A model generated the notes under the pieces. The model did no database searches, was not told the DNA's origin, and worked only from the letters and a program-made list of their open reading frames with translations. Of a stretch of 64,000 nucleotides of DNA, positions 15,308 through 63,315 are shown one piece after another (the first letter of the stretch is position 1; each line of letters starts with the position of its first letter). Source of the DNA: Winogradskya consettensis (GTDB lineage: Bacteria; Actinomycetota; Actinomycetes; Mycobacteriales; Micromonosporaceae); the NCBI RefSeq assembly GCF_018332715.1, contig NZ_BOQP01000057.1, positions 1-64,000 of the forward strand, in the 5' to 3' direction. The position numbers and the translations under genes were made by a program.

Positions 15308-15733
15308 ATGCCGAGGTACATGCTGATCATGCGAGGCACCGACGAGACGACCGCGGCCATGATGGCCACGCCGTTCGAGGAGATGCTGGCCACGACGGGC
15401 CGGTTCAACGAGGAGCTGATCAAGGCGGGCGTGCTGCTCGCCGCCGAGGGGCTGGACGATCCGGGGCAGGGTGTGGTGGTCGACCTCGGCGGCGAGAGCC
15501 CGGTGGTCACCGACGGGCCGTACGGTGAGACCAGGGAACTTTTCGGTGGTTTCTACCTGCTCGAGGTCGCCTCGCAGCAGGAGGCGGTCGAGTGGGCGAA
15601 GCGGATCCCGGCCTTCCCCGGCTCGAGCATCGAGATCCGCCGGGTGCCCGGCATCGAGGAATTCCCGCAGGACAACGAGTGGGTCGCCAAGGAACGCGCC
15701 TGGCGCGAAAGCGGCGCATCCGTCACGCACTAG
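15308..15733 (+). CDS. YCII-related (DGPF-type) protein
   Basis: A 141-residue protein of the YCII/DGPF family: MPRYMLIMRGTDETT, LIKAGVLLAAEGL, then VVTDGPYGETRELFGGFYLL with the DGP(Y/F) signature, and WAKRIPAFPGSSIEIRRV. The family has a ferredoxin-like dimeric fold, often encoded near ECF sigma factors, with no established catalytic role. The start is ATG 15308 with GAGGGAG upstream. Its stop shares a CTAG with the convergent 15730-15972 gene, so the two tails overlap by four bases. Confidence 0.9.
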   Translation: MPRYMLIMRGTDETTAAMMATPFEEMLATTGRFNEELIKAGVLLAAEGLDDPGQGVVVDLGGESPVVTDGPYGETRELFGGFYLLEVASQQEAVEWAKRIPAFPGSSIEIRRVPGIEEFPQDNEWVAKERAWRESGASVTH

Positions 15734-15972
15734 TGAGCGTCGCGACCCATTTCCTCGGGTACGGCTTCTGCGCCGCCAAGGCGCCGGGAGACGACCCCGA
15801 TGAACCGGGTCTTGCGGCGGATCACGTCCCACGGCTCCCGCTCGTCGTCGGCCCAGTCGCGGAGCAGGGCGTACAGGGTTCCGTACGGCGAGCTGTCGGC
15901 CAGCACGCCGGTGAGCAGGTCGTACATGGAGTCCAGCGAACGCCCGACGAAGTGCAGGACGCCGCCCGACAT
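15730..15972 (-). CDS. Small hypothetical protein
   Basis: An 80-residue basic/acidic protein (MSGGVLHFVGRSLDSMYDLL ... REPWDVIRRKTRFIGVVSRR). No family, signal peptide or membrane span recognised. ATG 15972 is preferred because GAGGAG lies just upstream; ATG 15987 is the alternative. Its TAG stop overlaps that of the YCII gene. Confidence 0.5.
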   Translation of the reverse strand: MSGGVLHFVGRSLDSMYDLLTGVLADSSPYGTLYALLRDWADDEREPWDVIRRKTRFIGVVSRRLGGAEAVPEEMGRDAH

Positions 15973-16134
15973 CTTCTCCTCACGCATGTGGCGTGTGTAC
16001 CGAACCCCGGCCCGCCGCGACACCGATATTCCGGTGGACGCCCTCTCCCCGTCCACCGGCGCGGCCTCCGCCCGAGCCGGCCGCGACATCGGCCGAGCCG
16101 CAGCCCCCGAGGTGGCAGCATTCTGGCCGTGACC

Positions 16135-16214
16135 CGGCAACCCCGGGCCGCGGCAACCCCGGGCCGCGGCAACCCCGGGTCGTGCCAACCCCGGGTCGTG
16201 CCAGTCTCAGGCCG
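16135..16214. repeat. 16-bp tandem repeat, five copies
   Basis: Unit CGGCAACCCCGGGCCG at 16135, 16151, 16167, 16183 and 16199; the first two copies are identical and the last three carry substitutions. The last copy runs into the 3' end of the GGDEF-EAL gene, whose stop codon (16207) lies inside it. Confidence 0.85.
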
Positions 16215-18465: not shown

Positions 18466-18936
18466 CTACAGCTCGGTCACGGTACGCGTCTGTGAGTTGT
18501 AACTGCGTGCGGCGACGAAGCTTCCGCGCGCGGGTGGCAGGTCGGCGAGTAGATGAAGTGCTTCGTCATGGGCGGTTTCGGTGATCTTGAGGGCCAGGCT
18601 GACGTGCGGGACGAAGTCCGGTGGCGGGGGCCAGGGGTTCGCGGCGGTCAGGGAGGTCCAGATGGCGGTCTGGAGGGCGCGGAGTTCGGCGGTCGGTGTC
18701 ACCTCGCGGACCAGGGCTCGCCCGAGGATGCGCACCCGTCCGAGTTCCGCCGCGACCGGTAGCCGTAGCGGGCTCAGCCCCTGCAGCGACTCGGCGGTGA
18801 TCATTGTCAGGTGCGGGCGGTTGGTCGGGTGGGGGTGGGTGGCGAGGCTCGGCAGGCCGGCGGCGGCCAGGAGTGACCACAGATGGCGTACGCCGGCCTC
18901 GAGCTGCTCGTCGGGCAGCAGTTCGACGGTGTGCAC
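18466..18936 (-). CDS. 2'-5' RNA ligase-like 2H phosphoesterase
   Basis: A 156-residue protein with the two His-x-Thr/Ser motifs of the 2H superfamily: HLT at residues 42-44 (in NRPHLTM) and HVS at 111-113 (FVPHVSLAL), the expected spacing for a single LigT/ThpR-type domain. Enzymes of this family hydrolyse or ligate 2',3'-cyclic phosphates or related nucleotides; the substrate here is unknown. It lies 36 bp upstream of the GGDEF-EAL gene on the same strand. Confidence 0.85.
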   Translation of the reverse strand: MHTVELLPDEQLEAGVRHLWSLLAAAGLPSLATHPHPTNRPHLTMITAESLQGLSPLRLPVAAELGRVRILGRALVREVTPTAELRALQTAIWTSLTAANPWPPPPDFVPHVSLALKITETAHDEALHLLADLPPARGSFVAARSYNSQTRTVTEL

Positions 18937-18961
18937 GTCACTACATCTACCAGGCCCAGAT

Positions 18962-19753
18962 CTACCAGGCCCAGGCCTCCGGACCCGGGCCGCCGTTGCC
19001 GATCGGCGGGAAGATGTCGTCGAGGGCGCTCAGCGTCTCCGCGGAGAGCGTGGTCTCCAGGGCGAGCAGGGCCTGATCCAGCTGCCCGGGAACGCGCGGG
19101 CCGACGACCGGCGCGGTGACGCCGGGCCGGGACAGCAGCCACGCGAGGGCTACCGCGGTCGGTTCCAGGCCCAGCCCGGCGCACAGCTTCTCGTAGCGTT
19201 CCAGCGCGGCGACGTGCGGCTCGACCCGGACCGCGGCGTCGCGGGCCGTGCGGACGCCGGTGTTCTCCCGTTGTTTGCGCAGCGCCCCGGAGAGCGCGCC
19301 GAAATGCAGCGGAGAGTACGGCAGCACGCCGATCCCCAGCTCGATCGCCGCTGGTAGCACCTCGAGCTCCACGTGCCGGGTGAGCAGGTTGTATTTTGCC
19401 TGCTCGGAGACGAGACCGAGATAGTTGCGGCGATCGGCGGCGGCCTGGGCGCAGGCGAGGTGCCAGCCCGCGAAGTTCGACGAACCCGCGTACCGGATCT
19501 TGCCCTGCCGGGTGAGGATTTCCAGGGCCTGCCAGATCTCCTCCCACGGGGTGCCGCGCTCCACGTGATGCAGCTGGAACAGGTCGATCCAGTCGGTCCG
19601 CAACCGCCGCAGCGAAGCCTCGCAGGACGCGATGATGTGCCGCGCCAGGATCGCGTGGCTCTCGCTCTCGGTGGTCAGCCAGCCGAAATTCATCGTCCCG
19701 AGACAGACCCGCGACACCTGCAGCCCGGTCCGCCCCAGCTTCGTGTACCTCAT
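18962..19753 (-). pseudogene. Aldo/keto reductase with internal in-frame deletion
   Basis: A 263-residue open frame that starts and ends like a complete AKR of about 325-345 residues (MRYTKLGRTGLQVSRVCLGT; SSNFAGWHLACAQAAA; LVSEQAKYNLLTRHVELEVL) but joins ESHAIL (residue 36) directly to ARHIIASCEASLRRL. About 65-75 residues expected in between are missing, the block that carries the catalytic Asp, Tyr (VYG) and Lys (ATK). Only the His of FQLHH (about 62-63) remains. The frame is preserved across the junction, yet the protein should have no reductase activity. ATG 19753 is the family start. Divergent from the ArsR-type gene at 19817. Confidence 0.75.
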
Positions 19754-19793
19754 GGCCCGATCCTGGCTCCGGGTACGCGGTGAGGGGTAACCG

Positions 19794-19809
19794 TTCGACT
19801 GTGCTCGAA
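19794..19809 (+). promoter_or_regulatory. Possible ArsR-type operator
   Basis: TTCGA-CTGTGC-TCGAA is an inverted repeat centred 16 bp before the ATG of the ArsR-like gene and between it and the divergent AKR gene. Short arms make it a weak candidate. Confidence 0.35.
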
Positions 19810-19816
19810 TGGTCGC

Positions 19817-20581
19817 ATGCTCACGTTCGAGCTCACCGCCGCCGAGGTCCGCGTCGGCCACTCCCCGATGGCGGAGACCATGGCGAGCCTGGTCGCGCTC
19901 CAGGAAACGGACAGATTCTGGATGTACGCGTCCTGGCGCGCCCGCGTCACTCCGGCCCTCGCCGCCCTGGGCCTGAGGACCCTGCCTGCCGTGGTCGCGC
20001 ACCCGCACGTGTGGCTGCCCGACTTCCTCACCCCGGTCCCCGCGATCGGGCTTCCCCGCCCCCGGCTCCGCGACGAGCTGGCCCAGATCGCGGCGACGCC
20101 GCTCGACCTGGTCGCGTACGAGATGGACCTGGCCTGGAAAGGCAGCGAGCCGCCGCCCGAGATCTCGATCTTCGCCACCGATCCGGCGCGGGGCCTGGCC
20201 GAAACGTACGCCGGCCAGGCCATGACCCTGCTCCCGTCAGCCTTCGCCGGGCCGAAGGTGTTCGCCCTGACCTCATCACCACGCGGATCGGCCCTCTGGT
20301 ACCCACCGCGCGGGTTCGGCACATTGTGGAACGCCCCGGGCCCGGTCCCGGGAGCCGCGGTGTCGGCGCTGCTCGGTGCCACCCGGGCAGCCGTGCTGAC
20401 GCTGGTCGCCGCACCGCACAGCACGGGCGAGGTGGCTGCGACGCTCGGAATCTCGCCGGCAACGGCGTCGCACCACCTGACGACTCTGCGCGATGCCGGG
20501 CTCGTCGTGGGCAGCAGGGACGGACGCCAGGTTCGTTACGACCGCTCAGATCTGGGCGATCAGGTCTGCGGCGACGCCTGA
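19817..20581 (+). CDS. ArsR-like regulator (DUF5937 type), shortened internally
   Basis: A 254-residue protein. The N-terminal part (LTAAEVRVGHSPMAETMASL, LPDFLTPVP) and ALWYPPRGFGTLWN match the ligand domain of a large actinobacterial ArsR-related family; residues about 185-245 form the winged helix (STGEVAATLGISPATASHHL, TTLRDAGLVVGSRDGRQVRY). Relatives I recall have about 320-330 residues. Here DPARGLAE (about 129) runs straight into TYAGQAMTLLPSAF, and the intervening helical block of about 70-80 residues is absent. DNA binding may survive; ligand sensing is doubtful. The tail overlaps the convergent HAD gene by 22 bp. Could be a degraded gene like its neighbour. Confidence 0.75.
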   Translation: MLTFELTAAEVRVGHSPMAETMASLVALQETDRFWMYASWRARVTPALAALGLRTLPAVVAHPHVWLPDFLTPVPAIGLPRPRLRDELAQIAATPLDLVAYEMDLAWKGSEPPPEISIFATDPARGLAETYAGQAMTLLPSAFAGPKVFALTSSPRGSALWYPPRGFGTLWNAPGPVPGAAVSALLGATRAAVLTLVAAPHSTGEVAATLGISPATASHHLTTLRDAGLVVGSRDGRQVRYDRSDLGDQVCGDA

Positions 20582-21048
20582 CCCAACCACCGTTGCACCG
20601 CGGCGAAGTCCGCGTCCGTCAGGCCGGCGAGGGGATCGACCCGGTGCACGAGCGCGCGTCCGGGGTGATTCGCCGCCACCCAGCGCCGGTCGGCACCGGT
20701 CGTCTCGTCGTCCAGCCAGACGAAGGGCCGCCCGTCCGCCCACCGGGTCAGCGCGATCGTCTTCCAGTGCAGACCGTCTCCGGGGTCCTCATCCTCGTCC
20801 GGCCAGTCGACGACGGGCAGCCGGGGGAGACCGAGCAACGGTGCCACCGTCTCGTTCGCCTCGTGCATCCAGGTGGTCGCCCAGACCAGCTCGCACCCCA
20901 GCCCGATCAGCCGCCGCCCGTCCGCGGGATCGAGCCGGTCCAGCAGCGGGTTGCCGCCCTCACCCTGCGCGGTCGCCGGCCGGCTGCCCGGCCGTGCGCG
21001 GAAAGGGATCAGGGGGCCGTCGACGTCGAGGAAGATCAGCGGTGGCAC
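20560..21048 (-). CDS. HAD-like hydrolase domain protein
   Basis: A 162-residue HAD-superfamily protein. The first motif IFLDVDGPL has Asp8 and Asp10; a second block LGCELVWATTWMHEAN contains the Thr motif; LHWKTIALTRWADGRP supplies the Lys; WLDDETTGADRRWVAAN carries the terminal Asp pair. These cover HAD motifs I-IV, so it is probably a small phosphatase of unknown substrate. Cytoplasmic. Convergent with and overlapping the ArsR-like gene. Confidence 0.83.
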   Translation of the reverse strand: MPPLIFLDVDGPLIPFRARPGSRPATAQGEGGNPLLDRLDPADGRRLIGLGCELVWATTWMHEANETVAPLLGLPRLPVVDWPDEDEDPGDGLHWKTIALTRWADGRPFVWLDDETTGADRRWVAANHPGRALVHRVDPLAGLTDADFAAVQRWLGQASPQT

Positions 21049-21150
21049 GCGTGGACGGTAGCGGTCGAGCGGATCGAGGTGGCCGGAGCCCGACCGTGGT
21101 CGCGAACCGGCCGTCGCGGAAGGACGGCTGCGGCACTGCCGGCCCGCCGG

Positions 21151-22719
21151 TTACGCGCCGGTGATCGGGAGGGCGGTGGCGATGGGCCAGGCGAGCAGGA
21201 GGGAGCCGGCGGCGGCGGTCAGCCAGCGGGAGGCGCCGGCGCGGTTCAGGAGGGTGCTCCAGGCTGCCTGCCACAGCATGAGCAGGGCCAGCAGCGGCAC
21301 TACCAGCAGGACGAAGGACGAGGTCAGGCCCGTGATCGCCGCTCCGGTCAGGGCCAGGAGCGTGATCGCCGACACGGCCAGGGTGGCGTGGACGTTGCCG
21401 TTGGTGGCGCGCTCGGTGGCGTACGTGAGGAGGGTGAAGGCGGCCCAGACCGCCAGGAGCAACCACCAGCGGATGCCCGTGGGCACGACGTGGGTCACGC
21501 CGAGCTGCAGGGGCACAGTGATCGCGCCGGCGGCGTACACCATGATCAAGACCTGGATCTTCGGTCCGGCTCTGCGTCCGGTCTTTGCCCTCATCGTGTA
21601 CGCGAGGAGCAGCGCGCCTGTCACCCCCATGAGCCCCACGACGTAGCCGCCCAGGTCCAGCGGCAGCCTGTTGCTCGGCAGGATCGGGGCCAGCAGCGCA
21701 CCCACCAGTGCGGCACCAGCGGCAACCACGCAGACGCGGCCGACCAGCGGCGCATCGAAGCGGAACCATCCGGCCGGCGGTCCGTCGGGACGGTCCGATG
21801 CGGCGATCGGCCGGCCGGCCAGTGGTGCGTCGGGGCGGTCCGGTCCGGCGATCGGCCGGCCGAGGAGGAGCCATGCGAGGGGGAACAGGCCGATTGCGAA
21901 GGCGAGCAACAGGAGCACCGCGCCTGCGGGACGCCGCAAGGGGGAGGGGAGCCCGCCGGGATCGGCGGGTCTGCCGAGGGATTGGTCGAGCCAGGCCGCG
22001 GTTTCGCGGTGGGTGCGGGGCGCGTACAGGATGGAGATGTGCTCGACGGCGGGGACGACCACCAGGGAGCGGTCGGGGCTGACCGCGGCGGCGGTGGTGG
22101 CGACCTCGTGGAATGCGGGGAATTCCAGAGCGCCCACCATCAGGAGCAGGTGCTGCGGGTCGCCGGTCCGGGCGATCGAGGCGTAGGGCAGGGAGATGGC
22201 GACCGTGGCGCTGATGTCCGGATGGCTTGCGGCGTAGCGAGTGACGGTTGTGGCGCCCATGGAGTGCCCGACGAGCGCGATGCGGGCGGGGTCCACATCG
22301 GGCAGCGAGCGCAGATGGGCCAGCGCGACGTCGAGGTCGTGCTGCAGCGCGTCGTCGCCGTCCGGCATGGGGTGCGTGTTGGCGCCGTGCCCGCTGAAGT
22401 CGAGCAGCACCACCACATAGCCCCGCGCGGCGAGCGTGTCCCCGAACGGTGCCATCAGCCGCGCCGACCCGGCGAACCCGTGCGCCACCACCACCCCGGG
22501 ATGCCGGTCGCCGGGCGGATGAACCTCGTCCAGCGGCACCCCGCCGACGACGGCGTGCGCGTGGTGCGTGTCCCCGCCCGCGCCGGCTGACAACCACACG
22601 CCCGCGGTGGCGAGCAGGAGCGCGGCGATCGCCACGATGATGGGCAGGCGTCGATCGTTGGGCACGTCAGACCGTACCGTGTCGGACCTGGTTGAGACCG
22701 CCGTCCACGTCGTACTCAC
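21151..22719 (-). CDS. Alpha/beta hydrolase fused to a multi-span membrane domain
   Basis: A 522-residue protein. One membrane helix near residues 24-42 is followed by an alpha/beta hydrolase with VVAHGFAGSA (oxyanion region), the nucleophile elbow GHSMG (Ser153) and a likely catalytic His in VEHISILY. From about residue 275 to the end there are seven or eight hydrophobic helices. Between the domains GRPIAGPDRPDAPLAG is followed by a near-copy, GRPIAASDRPDGPPAG. Substrate unknown; the active site probably lies outside the membrane. The GTG start overlaps the stop of the upstream dehydrogenase-like gene (GTGA), indicating coupling. Confidence 0.82.
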   Translation of the reverse strand: MSTTWTAVSTRSDTVRSDVPNDRRLPIIVAIAALLLATAGVWLSAGAGGDTHHAHAVVGGVPLDEVHPPGDRHPGVVVAHGFAGSARLMAPFGDTLAARGYVVVLLDFSGHGANTHPMPDGDDALQHDLDVALAHLRSLPDVDPARIALVGHSMGATTVTRYAASHPDISATVAISLPYASIARTGDPQHLLLMVGALEFPAFHEVATTAAAVSPDRSLVVVPAVEHISILYAPRTHRETAAWLDQSLGRPADPGGLPSPLRRPAGAVLLLLAFAIGLFPLAWLLLGRPIAGPDRPDAPLAGRPIAASDRPDGPPAGWFRFDAPLVGRVCVVAAGAALVGALLAPILPSNRLPLDLGGYVVGLMGVTGALLLAYTMRAKTGRRAGPKIQVLIMVYAAGAITVPLQLGVTHVVPTGIRWWLLLAVWAAFTLLTYATERATNGNVHATLAVSAITLLALTGAAITGLTSSFVLLVVPLLALLMLWQAAWSTLLNRAGASRWLTAAAGSLLLAWPIATALPITGA

Positions 22720-23636
22720 CCATGACCTTGTTCTCGCCCGCCGGGTCCGAGCAGGGCGTCGAGGGTGAAACGGGCGCCGAGCGACGCCGGACCTTTCGTG
22801 GCGCCGTCCCCGGCGAGGATTCGCAGGGCTGCGCCGACCACGAGCGGCGCGGTGATGGCGTAGATGTCGCGGCCGGCGTAAGTGATGCGGCGTTGCTCGC
22901 CGCCGCCGATCGCGACGACCTCGATGTGGAAGGTCTGCGCGGACCGGCCGTGCGCGTCCACGGCGGCCGGGCCGGAGGGGTCCGCGGCGTGCAGGTCGTC
23001 GACCGCGTTGGTGGTCATATAGGTGTCGATGTCGGGGATGTCCAGGTGGGTGGGGATGGTGGCGCTGTCCGCCATGGTGAACTCGGCGACGACCGGGCGG
23101 ATGCCGATGCTGAACGCGAAGTCGGTGCGGGGCTGGGCGCCGTCGCGGAACTGCAGTTTCCCGCCGGTGTGCACCGGGCGCAGTCCGCCGCGACGCTGGG
23201 AGGAGGCCCGGCCCGTCGCGCGGGTTCCCGGGGTGGGGCGCCAGCCGCTCAGGGCGTACGCAATGGTGAGCCTTTCCGTGCCCTGGAAGGCCACGGCAGT
23301 CGCGAGCAGGTCACCGAGGCCGCCGAAGAACCCGGCTGCCGGGACGATCGGGACGGGTGCGCCGGCGTAACGGTCGAAGGTGCTGGTGACGACCTCGAGC
23401 TCCGCGGTGACGTCGAGGTACGGGATGCCGGCCCGGACCGCGGCCGTGATGGTCGGGTCGGCGGTGGCGGCGAACGGGCCGGCGCAGTTGATGACGGCGT
23501 CGGCGTCCCGCAGCGCCGTGTCCAGGTCGGTCGTGCGGTCGCAGGCAACCGGGGTCACGCCGTGGTGCTCCAGCTCGGCGATGACAAAACGGCCGGTGTG
23601 ACCGGCGGCGCCCGGTACGGCGATTCGGTAGGACAT
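22716..23636 (-). CDS. Saccharopine dehydrogenase-like NAD(P)-binding protein
   Basis: A 306-residue protein with an N-terminal Rossmann motif (GAAGHTGRF, residues 9-17), ADAVINCAGPFAATADP, YLDVTAELEV and AGFFGGLGDLLATAVA, as in trans-acting enoyl-reductase/saccharopine dehydrogenase-like proteins. The C-terminal half is the alpha/beta partner domain with AGRDIYAITAPLVV. Substrate unknown; it need not act on saccharopine. It is coupled to the membrane hydrolase downstream. A decayed paralogue lies at 60676-61212. Confidence 0.85.
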   Translation of the reverse strand: MSYRIAVPGAAGHTGRFVIAELEHHGVTPVACDRTTDLDTALRDADAVINCAGPFAATADPTITAAVRAGIPYLDVTAELEVVTSTFDRYAGAPVPIVPAAGFFGGLGDLLATAVAFQGTERLTIAYALSGWRPTPGTRATGRASSQRRGGLRPVHTGGKLQFRDGAQPRTDFAFSIGIRPVVAEFTMADSATIPTHLDIPDIDTYMTTNAVDDLHAADPSGPAAVDAHGRSAQTFHIEVVAIGGGEQRRITYAGRDIYAITAPLVVGAALRILAGDGATKGPASLGARFTLDALLGPGGREQGHG

Positions 23637-23726: not shown

Positions 23727-23908
23727 TCAACGAGGGCAGAGGACGCTGGTGACCATCGTGAGGTAGGCCGCGCCGGCATCCGGAACCGGTGGCCGGCCCG
23801 GGACCTTGCGCTGGTGGTCAGCAGTTCCCGCTGTTGCTGAGGTCGCAGGAGCCGACCGCCGAACAGCGCGGCGTCGAAGCGGGCGAGGTCGGCGGTGGTG
23901 GAGATCAT
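23727..23908 (-). pseudogene. Beta-lactamase-family serine hydrolase fragment
   Basis: MISTTADLARFDAALFGGRL and LRPQQQRELLTT match the segment about 100 residues before the end of class-C-like serine hydrolases. A frame change then leads to AGAAYLTMVTSVLCPR and a stop, which looks like the authentic C-terminus. The catalytic N-terminal domain and the stretch between the two pieces are missing. Confidence 0.55.
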
Positions 23909-23981
23909 CGCCCTCGGTCTGCCCACGGCGGCCGACGACCACCGCCGGGTCCTGGCCGTGCTGCGTTATCTGAGGGCCTGA
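23898..23981 (+). pseudogene. C-terminal fragment of an unidentified gene
   Basis: ALGLPTAADDHRRVLAVLRY then LRA and TGA reads like a genuine gene end with good codon bias, but there is no start or body: upstream sequence belongs to the antisense serine-hydrolase fragment. Family unknown. Confidence 0.3.
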
Positions 23982-24012: not shown

Positions 24013-24640
24013 ATGCATTCTGTTGCCCTCGCCGTCACCGACGGCACGCCGCTGTTCGAGCTGGCCGCGGCGTGCGAGGTGTTCGGCGTGGACCGGGAGC
24101 TGGCCGACCCGTGGTACTCGTTCACGATCTGCGGCGACGACGGCGCGAGGGTGGGCGGCTGGCTGAACGCGGGCAGTTCGTGCTGGCCGAGGCGGGGCTG
24201 CTCGACGGCCGCCGCGCCACCACCCACTGGGCGCACACCGCCCTCATGCAGCGCAGATATCCGGCGGTGCGGGTCGACCCGGGCGTCCTCTACGTCGACG
24301 ACACCGACGTCCTGACCTCCGCGGGCAAGGCCGCGGGCATGGATCTCTGCCTGCATCTCGTACGCCAGGACCACGGCACCGCCGTCGCCAACACCCTCGC
24401 CCGCACCCTGGTGGTCCCGCCGCACCGACCCGGCGGCCAGGCGCAGTTCATCCCGGCCGCGGTCGCCCACGGCGCCGGCCACGTCCTGGGCGACGTCCTG
24501 CCCTGGGCCCTCGACCGCCTCGACCGGCCCACCACGGTGCGTGACCTGGCCCGCGAGGCCCGGATGAGCTGCGCCGCCACTTCAGCGGGCAGCTCGGCGT
24601 ACCCCCGGAAACCTATCGCCGCACCTTCCGCGCCGGTTAG
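24013..24640 (+). pseudogene. GlxA-type AraC regulator, deleted and frameshifted
   Basis: The ATG at 24013 begins MHSVALAVTDGTPLFELAAA, CEVFGVDRELADPWYSFTI, the DJ-1/PfpI-like start of GlxA-family regulators. After GDDGARVGGWLNAG the frame shifts and resumes at FVLAEAGLLDGRRATTHWAH, so about 60 residues including most of the DJ-1 core are gone. The AraC part runs LARTLVVPPHRPGGQAQFIP and RPTTVRDLAREARMS, then a second frame change leads to RRHFSGQLGVPPETYRRTFR and TAG, without the first recognition helix. Intact relatives have about 310-330 residues. The stop overlaps the convergent methyltransferase stop (TTAG). Confidence 0.8.
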
Positions 24641-59337: not shown

Positions 59338-60671
59338 CGACGCCTTTCGTATGGGGGGCCGCGACCGCGGCGTATCAGATCGAGGGAGGGGTGGCGGAGG
59401 ACGGCCGGGGTGACTCGATCTGGGATACGTTCTGCCGGCGGCCCGGGGCGATTGCTGACGGGACCTCCGGGGAGGTTGCTGCCGACAGTTATCACCGGTG
59501 GCTCGATGATGTGGAGCTTCTGGACGGCCTGGGTGTCGGCGCTTATCGCTTTTCGGTCGCGTGGCCGCGGGTCATGCCGAGCGGGGCGGTCAACAAGCCG
59601 GGGCTGGACTATTACGACAGGATCGTCGACGCGCTGTGCGAGCGTGGCATCCGTCCCTTTGTCACCCTTTATCACTGGGATCTGCCTCAGGAACTGGAAG
59701 ACAAAGGCGGCTGGAGAGTACGCGACACCGCGGACCGTTTCGCCGACTACGCCACGGTCGTCGCGGAGCGCCTCGGGGACCGGGTCGAGGACTGGATCAC
59801 GCTCAACGAGCCGTACTGTTCCTCGATCGTGGGTTATGCCGAAGGCCGCCACGCACCCGGCGCGACCGAAGGCCACGGGGCTCTCGCGGCAGCGCACCAC
59901 CTGCTGATCGCGCACGGCAGGGCAACAACGGCAATCCGCACCGTACGCCCGGAAGCCCGCGTAGGCATCACCCTCAACCTGTCCCCGGCGGTCCCCGCGA
60001 ACGACACCCCGATCGACCGCGCCGCCGCGGCCCGCATGGACCTGCTCGTGAACCGCCAGTTCACCGACCCGGTGCTCGGCGGCGCGTACCCGGACGGGTT
60101 CGAGAAGCTCTTCTCCGGCGTGAGCGACCTGTCCTTCCGCCGAGACGGTGACCTCGACATCATCGGCGTCCCGCTGGACTTCCTCGGCGTCAACTACTAC
60201 TACCGGATCCACGCCGCCGACGCGCCGTACGACCAGCCGGACCCGGGCCTGCGCAGCGCCAGCGACATCGGCGTTCGCTCGGTGCCCCGCGACGGCGTCC
60301 CCACCACCGACCTGGGCTGGCCCATCGAACCCCAGGGCCTGTACGACACCCTGACCGGCCTCGCCGAACGGTACCCGGCCCTGCCCCCGGTCTACGTCAC
60401 GGAAAACGGTGTCGCCCAGCTCCGCGACGACCTGAACCCCGACCCGGCCCGCATCGACTTCATCACCACCCACCTCGACGCCGCCACCCGCGCCGCCGCC
60501 GACGCCCCCATCGACCTCCGCGGCTACTTCTACTGGTCCCTGATCGACAACTTCGAATGGGCCCGCGGCTTCGGCCCCCGCTTCGGCCTGGTCCACGTCG
60601 ACTACCCCACGGGCAACCGCACCCCCCGGGCGAGCTACGAGTGGTTGCGCAGGCGGATCGCCGGGCTGTAG
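59334..60671 (+). CDS. GH1 beta-glucosidase
   Basis: A 445-residue cytoplasmic family 1 glycoside hydrolase. FVWGAATAAYQIEGGVAEDG is the family N-terminal signature; the acid/base Glu159 lies in ITLNEPYC and the nucleophile Glu357 in YVTENGVAQ; FYWSLIDNFEWARGFGPRFG completes the aglycone site. It should hydrolyse cellobiose or other beta-glucosides brought in by the adjacent importer. Full length, no damage. It ends four bases from the convergent pseudogene. Confidence 0.97.
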   Translation: MTTPFVWGAATAAYQIEGGVAEDGRGDSIWDTFCRRPGAIADGTSGEVAADSYHRWLDDVELLDGLGVGAYRFSVAWPRVMPSGAVNKPGLDYYDRIVDALCERGIRPFVTLYHWDLPQELEDKGGWRVRDTADRFADYATVVAERLGDRVEDWITLNEPYCSSIVGYAEGRHAPGATEGHGALAAAHHLLIAHGRATTAIRTVRPEARVGITLNLSPAVPANDTPIDRAAAARMDLLVNRQFTDPVLGGAYPDGFEKLFSGVSDLSFRRDGDLDIIGVPLDFLGVNYYYRIHAADAPYDQPDPGLRSASDIGVRSVPRDGVPTTDLGWPIEPQGLYDTLTGLAERYPALPPVYVTENGVAQLRDDLNPDPARIDFITTHLDAATRAAADAPIDLRGYFYWSLIDNFEWARGFGPRFGLVHVDYPTGNRTPRASYEWLRRRIAGL

Positions 60672-60675
60672 ATCT

Positions 60676-61212
60676 TCAGAGGGCGAGGTGGTCGAGGGGG
60701 AGGGCGCGCAGGAAGTCCCCGGCGTCGAAGGCCGTGCCCGCGGTGACCAGCCCGGTGGCCGCGGTCCGGCCGTCGAGGATCCGTGTGACCGCCTCGCCCG
60801 CCAGGGGCGCACTGAACGCGTAGATGTCGCGCCCACCGGCCGACACCCGGCGCTCCTGGCCGCCACGCCGGACGACCACCTCGACCATGAACGTCTGGGC
60901 CTGCCCGGGGTGAGCAGGGGGCGGCCCGACGTGCAGGTAGCTGCTGATGCCGCGGGTCGGCAGGTGCCGGGCGATGCTCACCACGTCCGCGGTGGGGAAC
61001 TCGGCCTCGACCTCCAAGGTGCCGAACGGCGGCGGAAAATCCCAGGTCCCGACCGGTCCACCCCGCCGTCACCGAAGGCGGCGGTGGCCAGTAGGTCGCC
61101 GAGACCGCCGAAGAAGCCGATCGCGGGCAGGACCAGGGTGCCGGCCGGCGGCCGGGCGTCGTCGAACATCCGCCATGCGACCAGCGTCTCCCCGGCGACG
61201 TCCAGAAACGTT
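60676..61212 (-). pseudogene. Saccharopine dehydrogenase-like pseudogene
   Basis: A decayed paralogue of 22716-23636. It begins inside the protein at VTFLDVAGETLVAWRMFDDA (equivalent to YLDVTAELEV), has the shared AIGFFGGLGDLLATAAF block, then a frameshift plus a loss of about 50 residues near GDGGVD. The second frame reads VGTWDFPPPFGTLEVEAEF, VSIARHLPTRGISSYLHVG and AGGRDIYAFSAPLAGEAVTR to the stop. The N-terminal Rossmann motif (about 70 residues) is missing entirely, so no dinucleotide-binding protein can be made. Confidence 0.75.
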
Positions 61213-61602
61213 ACTGTCCGCTTGGTTGACGACACGGGAGAATCTTGCTCAGCAGGGTGCCGCGCGGCGCGAAACCCTGGGATGAATAGAACCGCACGGC
61301 GTCTGCGTTGTGCGCGAAGATGCCCGCGTACAAATCTCGATGCCCTGGGTCAGGGCTGTGGCTTCGGCGGGCGGGTCGGGCAGGGGGACGATCTCGGCGG
61401 AACCGGCGATCTCGCCCGCGATCTCGGCGAGCAGGAACCGGCCCTCGGGGAACGACCGCTCGAAATGCGCGCGGACGATCGCGGCGTCGGGAACCCGGTA
61501 GACGTCCGGGTCGAGGCTGACATGCCACTGCGCGTTGGCCAGCCGCAGCGTGACCAGTGCTGGGACGTCGGCGGGCAGAGCGGGGCGGATCACCGGCTGC
61601 AT
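61211..61602 (-). pseudogene. GNAT acetyltransferase with deletion and frameshift
   Basis: The ATG at 61602 starts a GNAT domain (VIRPALPADVPALVTLRLAN, FLLAEIAGEIAGSAEIVPLP). After PDPPAEATALTQGI the frame changes and resumes at HRDLYAGIFAHNADAVRFYS, then SQGFAPRGTLLSKIL, the normal C-terminal strand. The central acetyl-CoA loop (Q/RxxGxG/A) and about 50 residues are lost. It merges at its 3' end with the saccharopine-like remnant. Confidence 0.75.
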
Positions 61603-61665
61603 GGGTGAACGTTACCGGGCGGCTGTGCCAGGGACGGCCCGGCGGGGAGCGGGTAGGTTCTCGGC

Positions 61666-63315
61666 GTGACCGTGGACCTCGAGGAACCCGCCGTCGACGT
61701 GCCCGAGGCGACTGAAAGGCCCCGCCGCCGCCGGAGGTGGGTCGCGCCGCTGCTGGTGCTGCTGTTGCTGGGGCAGATGGCGGCCGTCATGGTGGTCACC
61801 GCCGTGCAGCAGACGCCGACGATCGACGAGCCGGTCTACGTGGGCACCGCGGTCAGTTACCTGGAGCAGCACAGCCTGCGCTACAACCCCGAGCATCCGC
61901 CGCTCGGGAAGCTCATCATGGCGGCGGGGCTGGTGTTCGCGCATCCGAAGCTGGATCCCGCGTTCCGGGGCAACCAGAGCCTGCTCGGGCGGCACGTGCT
62001 CTACGAGGCGGGCAACGACCCGTACGAGCTGATGTTCCTGGCCCGGTTGCCGATGATCGTGCTGACGCTGCTGTTCGGGCTGGTCGTCTTCGCCTTCGCC
62101 CGGGATCTGACGGGGACCGCCGGGGGAGTGCTGGCCCTGTCCCTGTACGCGTTCTCGCCCGACCTGATCACGCACGGTTCCCTGGCGACGCTGGACGTAC
62201 CCGCGATCGGGTTCCTCGTGACGGCGGTGTGGCTGACGTGGCGGGCGCGCAGCTCACGGGCGTACCTCCATCTGGGTCTTGCGGGGGTTGCCCTGGGGGC
62301 GGCGATCGCGACGCGGATGAGTGTCATCCCGGCGGTGCCCGTGGTGATGCTGCTGGCGTTCCTGAGCCTCAGGAAGCAGCGGCGTTCCTGGCTGAGCGCG
62401 GTGGCGGCGGCCGTGGGTGTGGCCGTGCTCGCCGTTGCCGTCGTCTGGGTCTGTTACCTCGTGATCGATCCGCGGTTGCGGTTCCTGACGCCGACCGGGA
62501 TGCCGGAGATCCACGGGTTGCGGGCGCTGTTCGTCGACCTGCTGCCGTTGCCGGAGCCGTACCGCGACGGTATGCGCATCCAGTTCGGGTTCGAGGACTC
62601 GACGTTCCAGGGGTTCCTGTTCGGCCGGCTGTACGAGGGTTCGCTCTGGTACTACCTCCCCGCCGCGCTGCTGGTGAAGACGCCGCTCGGCATGATCGCG
62701 CTGTGGCTGGCCGGGAGCGTCGCGGTGCTCGCCGTGCCCCGGCTGCGCCCGGCCGCCGTCTATCTGCTCGTCACACCCGCGCTCCTGCTGGGCCTGGCGA
62801 TGACCGGTGCGCGTGACTTCGGCAGCCGTTACGCGATCTTCCTGCCGATCTTCCTCGCCGTCGCCGCGGCTGCCGTGGTCACGGTCCGCTGGCGGTGGGC
62901 GCACCTCGCCGCGGGGCTGCTCGCACTCTCGGTCGCGGTCAGTTCGGTGCGGACCTTTCCCTACTACCTGCCGTACGCCAACGAGGCGTTCGGGGGACCG
63001 TCGCGGACGCACCTGCTGCTGCACGACTCGAACGTCGACTGGGGTCAGGACCTGGGCCGGCTGGCGGACCGGCTGCGCGAGCGGTATCCCGGCGAGCAGG
63101 TCTGGCTCGTGTACAAGGGCGCGGGCGTGCCCTCGGCGTACGGAATCGATGCCCGCAACCCGCTCAAGACGCCGCCGGCGGACGTCCATGGCCTGCTCGT
63201 GGTCTCGGACAGCTCGGTGGCGAAGGCGACCGGCCGGCTGAAGGCCCTGCTCGCCACGAGCGGCGCCCCGGTCGACGAGGTCGGTCACTCGATCAGCATC
63301 TACCGCCGCCCCTGA
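61666..63315 (+). CDS. GT39/ArnT-like membrane glycosyltransferase
   Basis: A 549-residue protein with 11-13 hydrophobic helices starting after a basic RPRRRRRW segment. The first outer loop carries the catalytic-type acidic pair Asp54-Glu55 (TIDEPVYVG) and HPPLGKLIMAAGL, as in PMT/GT39 and related GT-C lipid-linked-sugar transferases. The C-terminal part has a soluble loop (SNVDWGQDLGRLADRLRERY). It probably transfers a sugar from a polyprenyl phosphate to a protein or glycan outside the membrane. The tail overlaps the convergent WYL gene by 23 bp. Confidence 0.87.
   Translation: MTVDLEEPAVDVPEATERPRRRRRWVAPLLVLLLLGQMAAVMVVTAVQQTPTIDEPVYVGTAVSYLEQHSLRYNPEHPPLGKLIMAAGLVFAHPKLDPAFRGNQSLLGRHVLYEAGNDPYELMFLARLPMIVLTLLFGLVVFAFARDLTGTAGGVLALSLYAFSPDLITHGSLATLDVPAIGFLVTAVWLTWRARSSRAYLHLGLAGVALGAAIATRMSVIPAVPVVMLLAFLSLRKQRRSWLSAVAAAVGVAVLAVAVVWVCYLVIDPRLRFLTPTGMPEIHGLRALFVDLLPLPEPYRDGMRIQFGFEDSTFQGFLFGRLYEGSLWYYLPAALLVKTPLGMIALWLAGSVAVLAVPRLRPAAVYLLVTPALLLGLAMTGARDFGSRYAIFLPIFLAVAAAAVVTVRWRWAHLAAGLLALSVAVSSVRTFPYYLPYANEAFGGPSRTHLLLHDSNVDWGQDLGRLADRLRERYPGEQVWLVYKGAGVPSAYGIDARNPLKTPPADVHGLLVVSDSSVAKATGRLKALLATSGAPVDEVGHSISIYRRP

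Follow-up and report, generated by a model that had tools for sequence, protein, structure and literature searches.

The locus and its two shortened genes

The window analysed here, the whole stretch of DNA under study, comprises 64,000 nucleotides from Winogradskya consettensis (contig NZ_BOQP01000057.1). It carries an aldo-keto reductase (AKR) gene and a divergently oriented gene for a DUF5937/ArsR-type regulator, with a conserved site between them. The coordinates of these and the related features are collected in Table 1. The start codon of the AKR gene is most likely that at 19753, rather than an upstream GTG.

Table 1. Coordinates of the genes, joints and losses discussed, as positions in the window
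Feature	Position	Strand	Remarks
AKR gene (AKRtyl/AKR12D-like), internally deleted	18965..19753	-	263 aa; stop codon 18962-18964
AKR deletion joint	19644..19645		180 bp gone, 60 codons with catalytic Asp, Tyr and Lys; ~1 nt common at joint
Likely operator GTTCGACTGTGCTCGAAT	19793..19810	+	Between AKR and regulator, 6 nt before regulator start codon; intact
DUF5937/ArsR-type regulator, internally deleted	19817..20581	+	254 aa; winged helix near C-terminus retained
Regulator deletion joint	20199..20200		180 bp (60 codons) gone; 1-2 nt common at joint
Beta-lactamase-family serine hydrolase remnant	23730..23913	-	60/365 codons left
GlxA-like (DJ-1/PfpI + AraC HTH) regulator remnant	24013..24632	+	Frameshifted: 151 bp (near 24176) and 160 bp (24569)
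Cluster of losses relative to the sister genome	15781..24632		252, 165, 180, 180, 99 (tandem repeat), 181, about 150, 160 and 323 bp, plus 44, 2200 and 2578 bp

An earlier note, made from the letters of the sequence, had held that both genes lack an internal block at particular places and that both frames remain open. It is apparent that this description is correct. The orthologous locus of a close relative was compared (locus L162 in the genome designated G063, which is 91-96% identical in DNA sequence in the blocks around the pair), and it contains both of the segments that are absent from the window. Comparison genomes were taken one per species, so that G063 represents a sister species. 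Its AKR and regulator are 323 and 314 aa long, respectively, and the window genes have therefore each lost 180 bp relative to it.

The AKR alignment consisted of the window sequence and 45 orthologues, out of 80 loci kept from 575 relatives. The 45 other rows contain 62-68 residues where the window has none; measured against the more distant relatives, the loss amounts to about 63 residues, as compared with 60 codons against the sister. The columns of the catalytic Asp, Tyr and Lys, which the earlier note had placed in the missing block, are indeed gapped in the window and filled in 45/45 orthologues, so that the tetrad is incomplete; those of the catalytic His and the C-terminal Trp are still present. 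The Pfam Aldo_ket_red profile (291 positions) matches the window protein at positions 85-289 only, and thus not over the whole domain; in an intact orthologue (locus L042), positions 1-289 are covered. An AlphaFold model of the short protein has a mean pLDDT of 83 overall, with values of 38 (residues 21-30) and 45 (residues 31-40) at the joint. The missing block includes two barrel strands, and the modelled short protein probably does not form a closed eight-stranded barrel. Because the Y53F mutant of AKRtyl is described as inactive (PMC10923870), and the same Tyr column is deleted here, reductase activity is not to be expected of the shortened AKR. Its remainder was examined for accelerated evolution and none was seen. 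The AKR paralogues in the same genome are diverged ones only, the best having 56% identity in a comparison of the gene as a whole.

In the regulator alignment, 17 of 17 other rows have 68-71 residues opposite the gap in the window sequence. A gap of about 70-80 residues had been noted earlier; the absence of the block is borne out, but its size is 60 codons against the sister and 68-71 residues against distant relatives. The winged helix-turn-helix profiles HTH_20 (45.1 bits) and HTH_5 (32.8 bits) match the window regulator above their cut-offs. DUF5937 scores 22.1 bits, below its cut-off of 27.1, as compared with 40.6 bits for the intact orthologue from genome G001. The model of the intact L042 regulator contains a single long helix (residues 124-168), and its residues from about 131 to 200, i.e. 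most of that helix and the strands that follow, have no counterpart in the window. Judged from this model, the short regulator would keep its DNA-binding end and lack most of the core helix. Invariant sites are changed at 9/66 positions in the window regulator vs 3/66 in that of G001; seven of the nine, as judged by eye, are common to the intact sister. When the full-length G001 regulator was used as the query, no second copy containing the block was found above 37% identity in the window's own genome.

The site between the two genes reads GTTCGACYGTGCTCGAAT in most loci (L155-L184 and L041-L060), where it lies between divergent AKR and DUF5937/ArsR genes. Of the family's 354 genomes scanned, 32 contain the pattern, at 33 places, with a single match in the genome of W. 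consettensis. Among the 17 named loci for which the spacing was determined, 16 have the site 6 nt upstream of the regulator start. This conservation points to a putative operator, and the 6-nt spacing suggests a leaderless regulator transcript combined with an operator. In Dactylosporangium sucinum (L057), the interval from the AKR start to the regulator appears to hold five or more tandem copies of an operator-like unit. A lost AKR promoter was considered as well, as a -10-like site looked degraded in comparison with distant relatives; the intact sister has the same hexamer, however, and this candidate was dropped. Where the pair is intact, the two genes and the conserved site constitute a tractable regulator-target unit.

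Direction of change

Thirty of the 33 places were read as loci, L162 of the sister among them, and three were left out. Among the 29 loci other than that of the window, 28 have an AKR and 28 a regulator within reach, and none of these lacks the block; one of the 28 AKRs is cut short at the opposite end. Homologues that naturally lack the blocks were thus absent both from these 28 + 28 proteins and from the two alignments. Since the blocks are present in the sister genome, in 45/45 AKR rows and in 17/17 regulator rows, the comparison argues that both were lost on the lineage of the window. An intact orthologue at the same place in a close sister, as is expected for a pseudogene, is therefore found for each gene. 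The use of outgroups to assign direction applies to the AKR and regulator losses; for the GlxA-like and hydrolase genes described below, direction is taken from the domains seen in the sister.

A cluster of losses around the pair

The two deletions lie in a stretch that is about 6 kb shorter than the corresponding 15 kb of the sister (Table 1). As a control, four further stretches (contig C8 twice, C46 and C49; 261 kb) were aligned to the sister genome, giving 330 kb in all. With one filter applied throughout, nine losses of 90-700 bp were found within 8.85 kb, vs four in the other ~322 kb aligned, two of them on the rest of the window's contig (C57) and two on C8. The Poisson probability of nine or more losses at the outside rate is ~6e-15, a figure that is overstated, as the stretch was chosen after the data had been seen, although the difference is a large one. 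The losses of 99 and about 150 bp pass the filter less cleanly (overlaps of 34 and 48 bases, respectively), and the size of the loss near 24176 was set by exact realignment. A genome-wide excess of small losses was considered and rejected, the filter having returned two in the 261 kb outside C57, where ~2.5% of the genome was sampled.

The same filter revealed eight losses of the reverse class, i.e. in the sister, over the 330 kb. These range from 112 to 536 bp and none is in the stretch, although a less clean loss of 189 bp in the sister does fall inside it. Because the reverse class comprises eight events in 330 kb, clean indels of 90-700 bp are a normal kind of change between these genomes. 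Beyond the stretch there are also large clean losses, of about 4.9 kb and 1.1 kb, on C8, and clustering is therefore shown for the small class only.

The overlap between the sequences joined was estimated as 0-2 nt at 10 of the 11 joints tested and as 12 nt at the other, which is outside the cluster; some of the fits were poor. It is odd that a length of exactly 180 bp occurs twice among the losses, next to one of 181 bp; given the 112-536 bp range of the losses in the sister, a size preference is possible. The reading frame is kept in 4/7 losses situated inside one frame (those in the AKR and regulator genes and those of 252 and 165 bp) and is broken by those of 181, 151 and 160 bp. If the chance of staying in frame is taken as one in three, P is 0.17. 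Inclusion of the 99-bp tandem-repeat loss gives 5/8 (P 0.09), and the use of uncorrected net lengths gives 6/9 (P 0.04); the excess of in-frame losses over chance is weak.

The losses of 252 and 165 bp, both multiples of three, affect a frame without a Pfam match (15733-16188), the counterpart of which in the sister has 207 codons and may or may not be a real gene. Elsewhere in the window, the sister has about 10.7 kb more DNA at 60654-61625, and an open frame at 61657-63312 has possible internal losses in comparison with relatives. Synonymous divergence from the sister is 0.13-0.23 for six genes in 18469-23636 vs 0.03-0.20 for the control genes of the window.

Broken and intact neighbours

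Within the stretch, Pfam matches were obtained for a GGDEF-EAL protein, a 2'-5' RNA ligase-like protein, the AKR, the regulator, a HAD-like protein and an alpha/beta hydrolase; a response-regulator-like protein was named by eye. The additional matches in the sister are to an Rrf2-type protein, a saccharopine dehydrogenase-like protein, a beta-lactamase-family hydrolase, a sensor kinase, a GlxA-like protein (with DJ-1_PfpI and HTH_18 domains) and Imm53. No codons of the Rrf2-type and sensor kinase genes remain in the window, and 6/230 codons remain of an unnamed gene. The 323-bp loss covers the Imm53 of the sister, to judge by its coordinates. Internal gaps relative to the sister are absent from the GGDEF-EAL, RNA ligase-like, HAD-like and saccharopine dehydrogenase-like genes. 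The 2200-bp loss, at 22706-22719, has deprived the alpha/beta hydrolase frame of its start; as judged by eye, this frame now opens at a GTG that lies in what is left of the start of another gene.

The state of these plainly broken neighbours serves as a useful control for the two open frames. The remains of the GlxA-like gene have 0, 2 and 12 changes at the first, second and third codon positions, respectively, in 609 bases, with 2/201 codons altered in meaning, and those of the hydrolase gene have 0, 0 and 4 in 182 bases (both on exact diagonals). For the remainder of the AKR gene, the corresponding changes relative to the sister are 4, 4 and 31, with a dN/dS of 0.10, and for that of the regulator gene they are 5, 4 and 37, with a dN/dS of 0.08; dN/dS in the control genes of the window ranges from 0.03 to 0.58. 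Relaxed selection in the remainder, another property expected of a pseudogene, is thus not seen in the AKR and regulator genes, and the dead neighbours likewise do not show it. Given that neighbours which are certainly dead have not yet begun to decay, the deletions look very recent. As the frame-broken neighbours are equally undecayed, the constraint on the AKR and regulator genes can predate the deletions, and the low dN/dS values are therefore no argument for working short forms. They are explained by very recent loss or by an assembly fault. Frames that are open, cleanly shortened and low in dN/dS can, in other words, reflect a gene loss that took place very recently, as opposed to a new function.

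Explanations for the losses

The reading that the data favour is that both genes were lost recently and locally, through two separate deletions of 180 bp in a local cluster; we assign it a probability of roughly two in three. A conserved divergent pair, reductase and regulator on either side of one likely operator, would have been knocked out very recently in the lineage of the window, and the two deletions would be part of a local burst or run of deletions. The one or two bases shared at both joints would fit DNA ends that were trimmed and then joined without a template, and the simplest assumption is that both frames stayed open by chance.

The alternative that survives best, although it is distinctly the less probable, is a fault of assembly, in which wrong joins bridged a region of poor coverage and the genes of the strain are intact. 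In its favour, the genome is a 112-contig draft, the rest of this assembly has few losses of such size, the losses that can be dated look equally fresh, and a length of 180 bp recurs (twice exactly, with one loss of 181 bp). Against this, the shared 1-2 nt at the joints offer little for an overlap-based join, and reads that span them should presumably exist; the sister genome likewise has indels of similar size, the contig is free of N, and the stretch is away from the contig ends. The omission of lines from the sequence file was also considered, and was discarded on the reasoning that none of the usual line lengths divides the distance from joint to joint.

A more specific proposal, that a single recent episode stripped one 9-kb stretch of about nine pieces measuring 90-350 bp, along with two of larger size, is tentative and rather unlikely. 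Equally doubtful is the form that such an episode would have taken, namely a shower of end-joined deletions in which the order and direction of what lies between were kept and many of the pieces were near 150-180 bp.

The earlier note had offered a choice between two independent deletions in adjacent genes and a pair of shortened proteins with a new role. Comparison with the sister and with distant orthologues supports the first of these, and the second is without support. It would have the proteins retained as a non-catalytic, reductase-derived scaffold and a regulator without its ligand core. The open frames, the constrained remainders, the intact likely operator, the retained winged helix and the slight excess of in-frame losses over chance are all compatible with such a role. 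The same stretch, however, contains losses that destroyed genes, and the equal freshness of the frame-broken neighbours deprives the constraint of its force; in addition, model confidence is low at the AKR joint, and the short forms are absent from all other genomes examined. The idea is accordingly improbable, and none of the results makes it necessary to assume that the short proteins have new roles. That the blocks are insertions gained by relatives, with the short forms being ancestral, has the clean joints and nothing more in its favour and is scarcely credible, given that the AKR block carries active-site residues in orthologues from several phyla and the regulator block is present in all 17 of the other rows.

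If the deletions are real, as the preferred reading of two separate recent losses holds, their clustering provides an opportunity to test whether deletions come in local bursts in relatives of Streptomyces, a genus from which several end-joining-like genes have been reported (S. ambofaciens, PMC5124664).

Comparison with known systems

A search of the literature for an aldo-keto reductase together with ArsR in Actinoplanes yielded nothing. For DUF5937, the literature found concerned salmonellosis only, and for pseudogenes and deletions it consisted of general papers. By sequence, the closest solved relatives of the intact L042 reductase are AKRtyl/AKR12D (PDB 8jwk-8jwo and 8xr2-8xr4; PMC10923870). 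The AKRtyl structures are also the nearest by fold to the model of the window remnant, with 44-46% identity; the His and C-terminal Trp columns are common to the two, and the Asp, Tyr and Lys columns are absent in the window.

The regulator may be compared with ArsR-type regulators that have an N-terminal DUF5937 region (Pfam PF19361). Its C-terminal winged helix fits HTH_20 and HTH_5; it differs from them in the region missing relative to L042 and in its sub-threshold DUF5937 score. In the model of the intact regulator, a stretch the size of a winged helix is similar to ArsR/SmtB and MarR folds (best E value 0.004).

Recent pseudogenes can arise through small deletions. Unlike typical recent pseudogenes, the AKR and regulator genes keep their frames, and no point decay is seen in them. 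What they have in common with recent small-deletion pseudogenes is the presence of intact sister orthologues, the loss of the active site and the disabled state of their neighbours.
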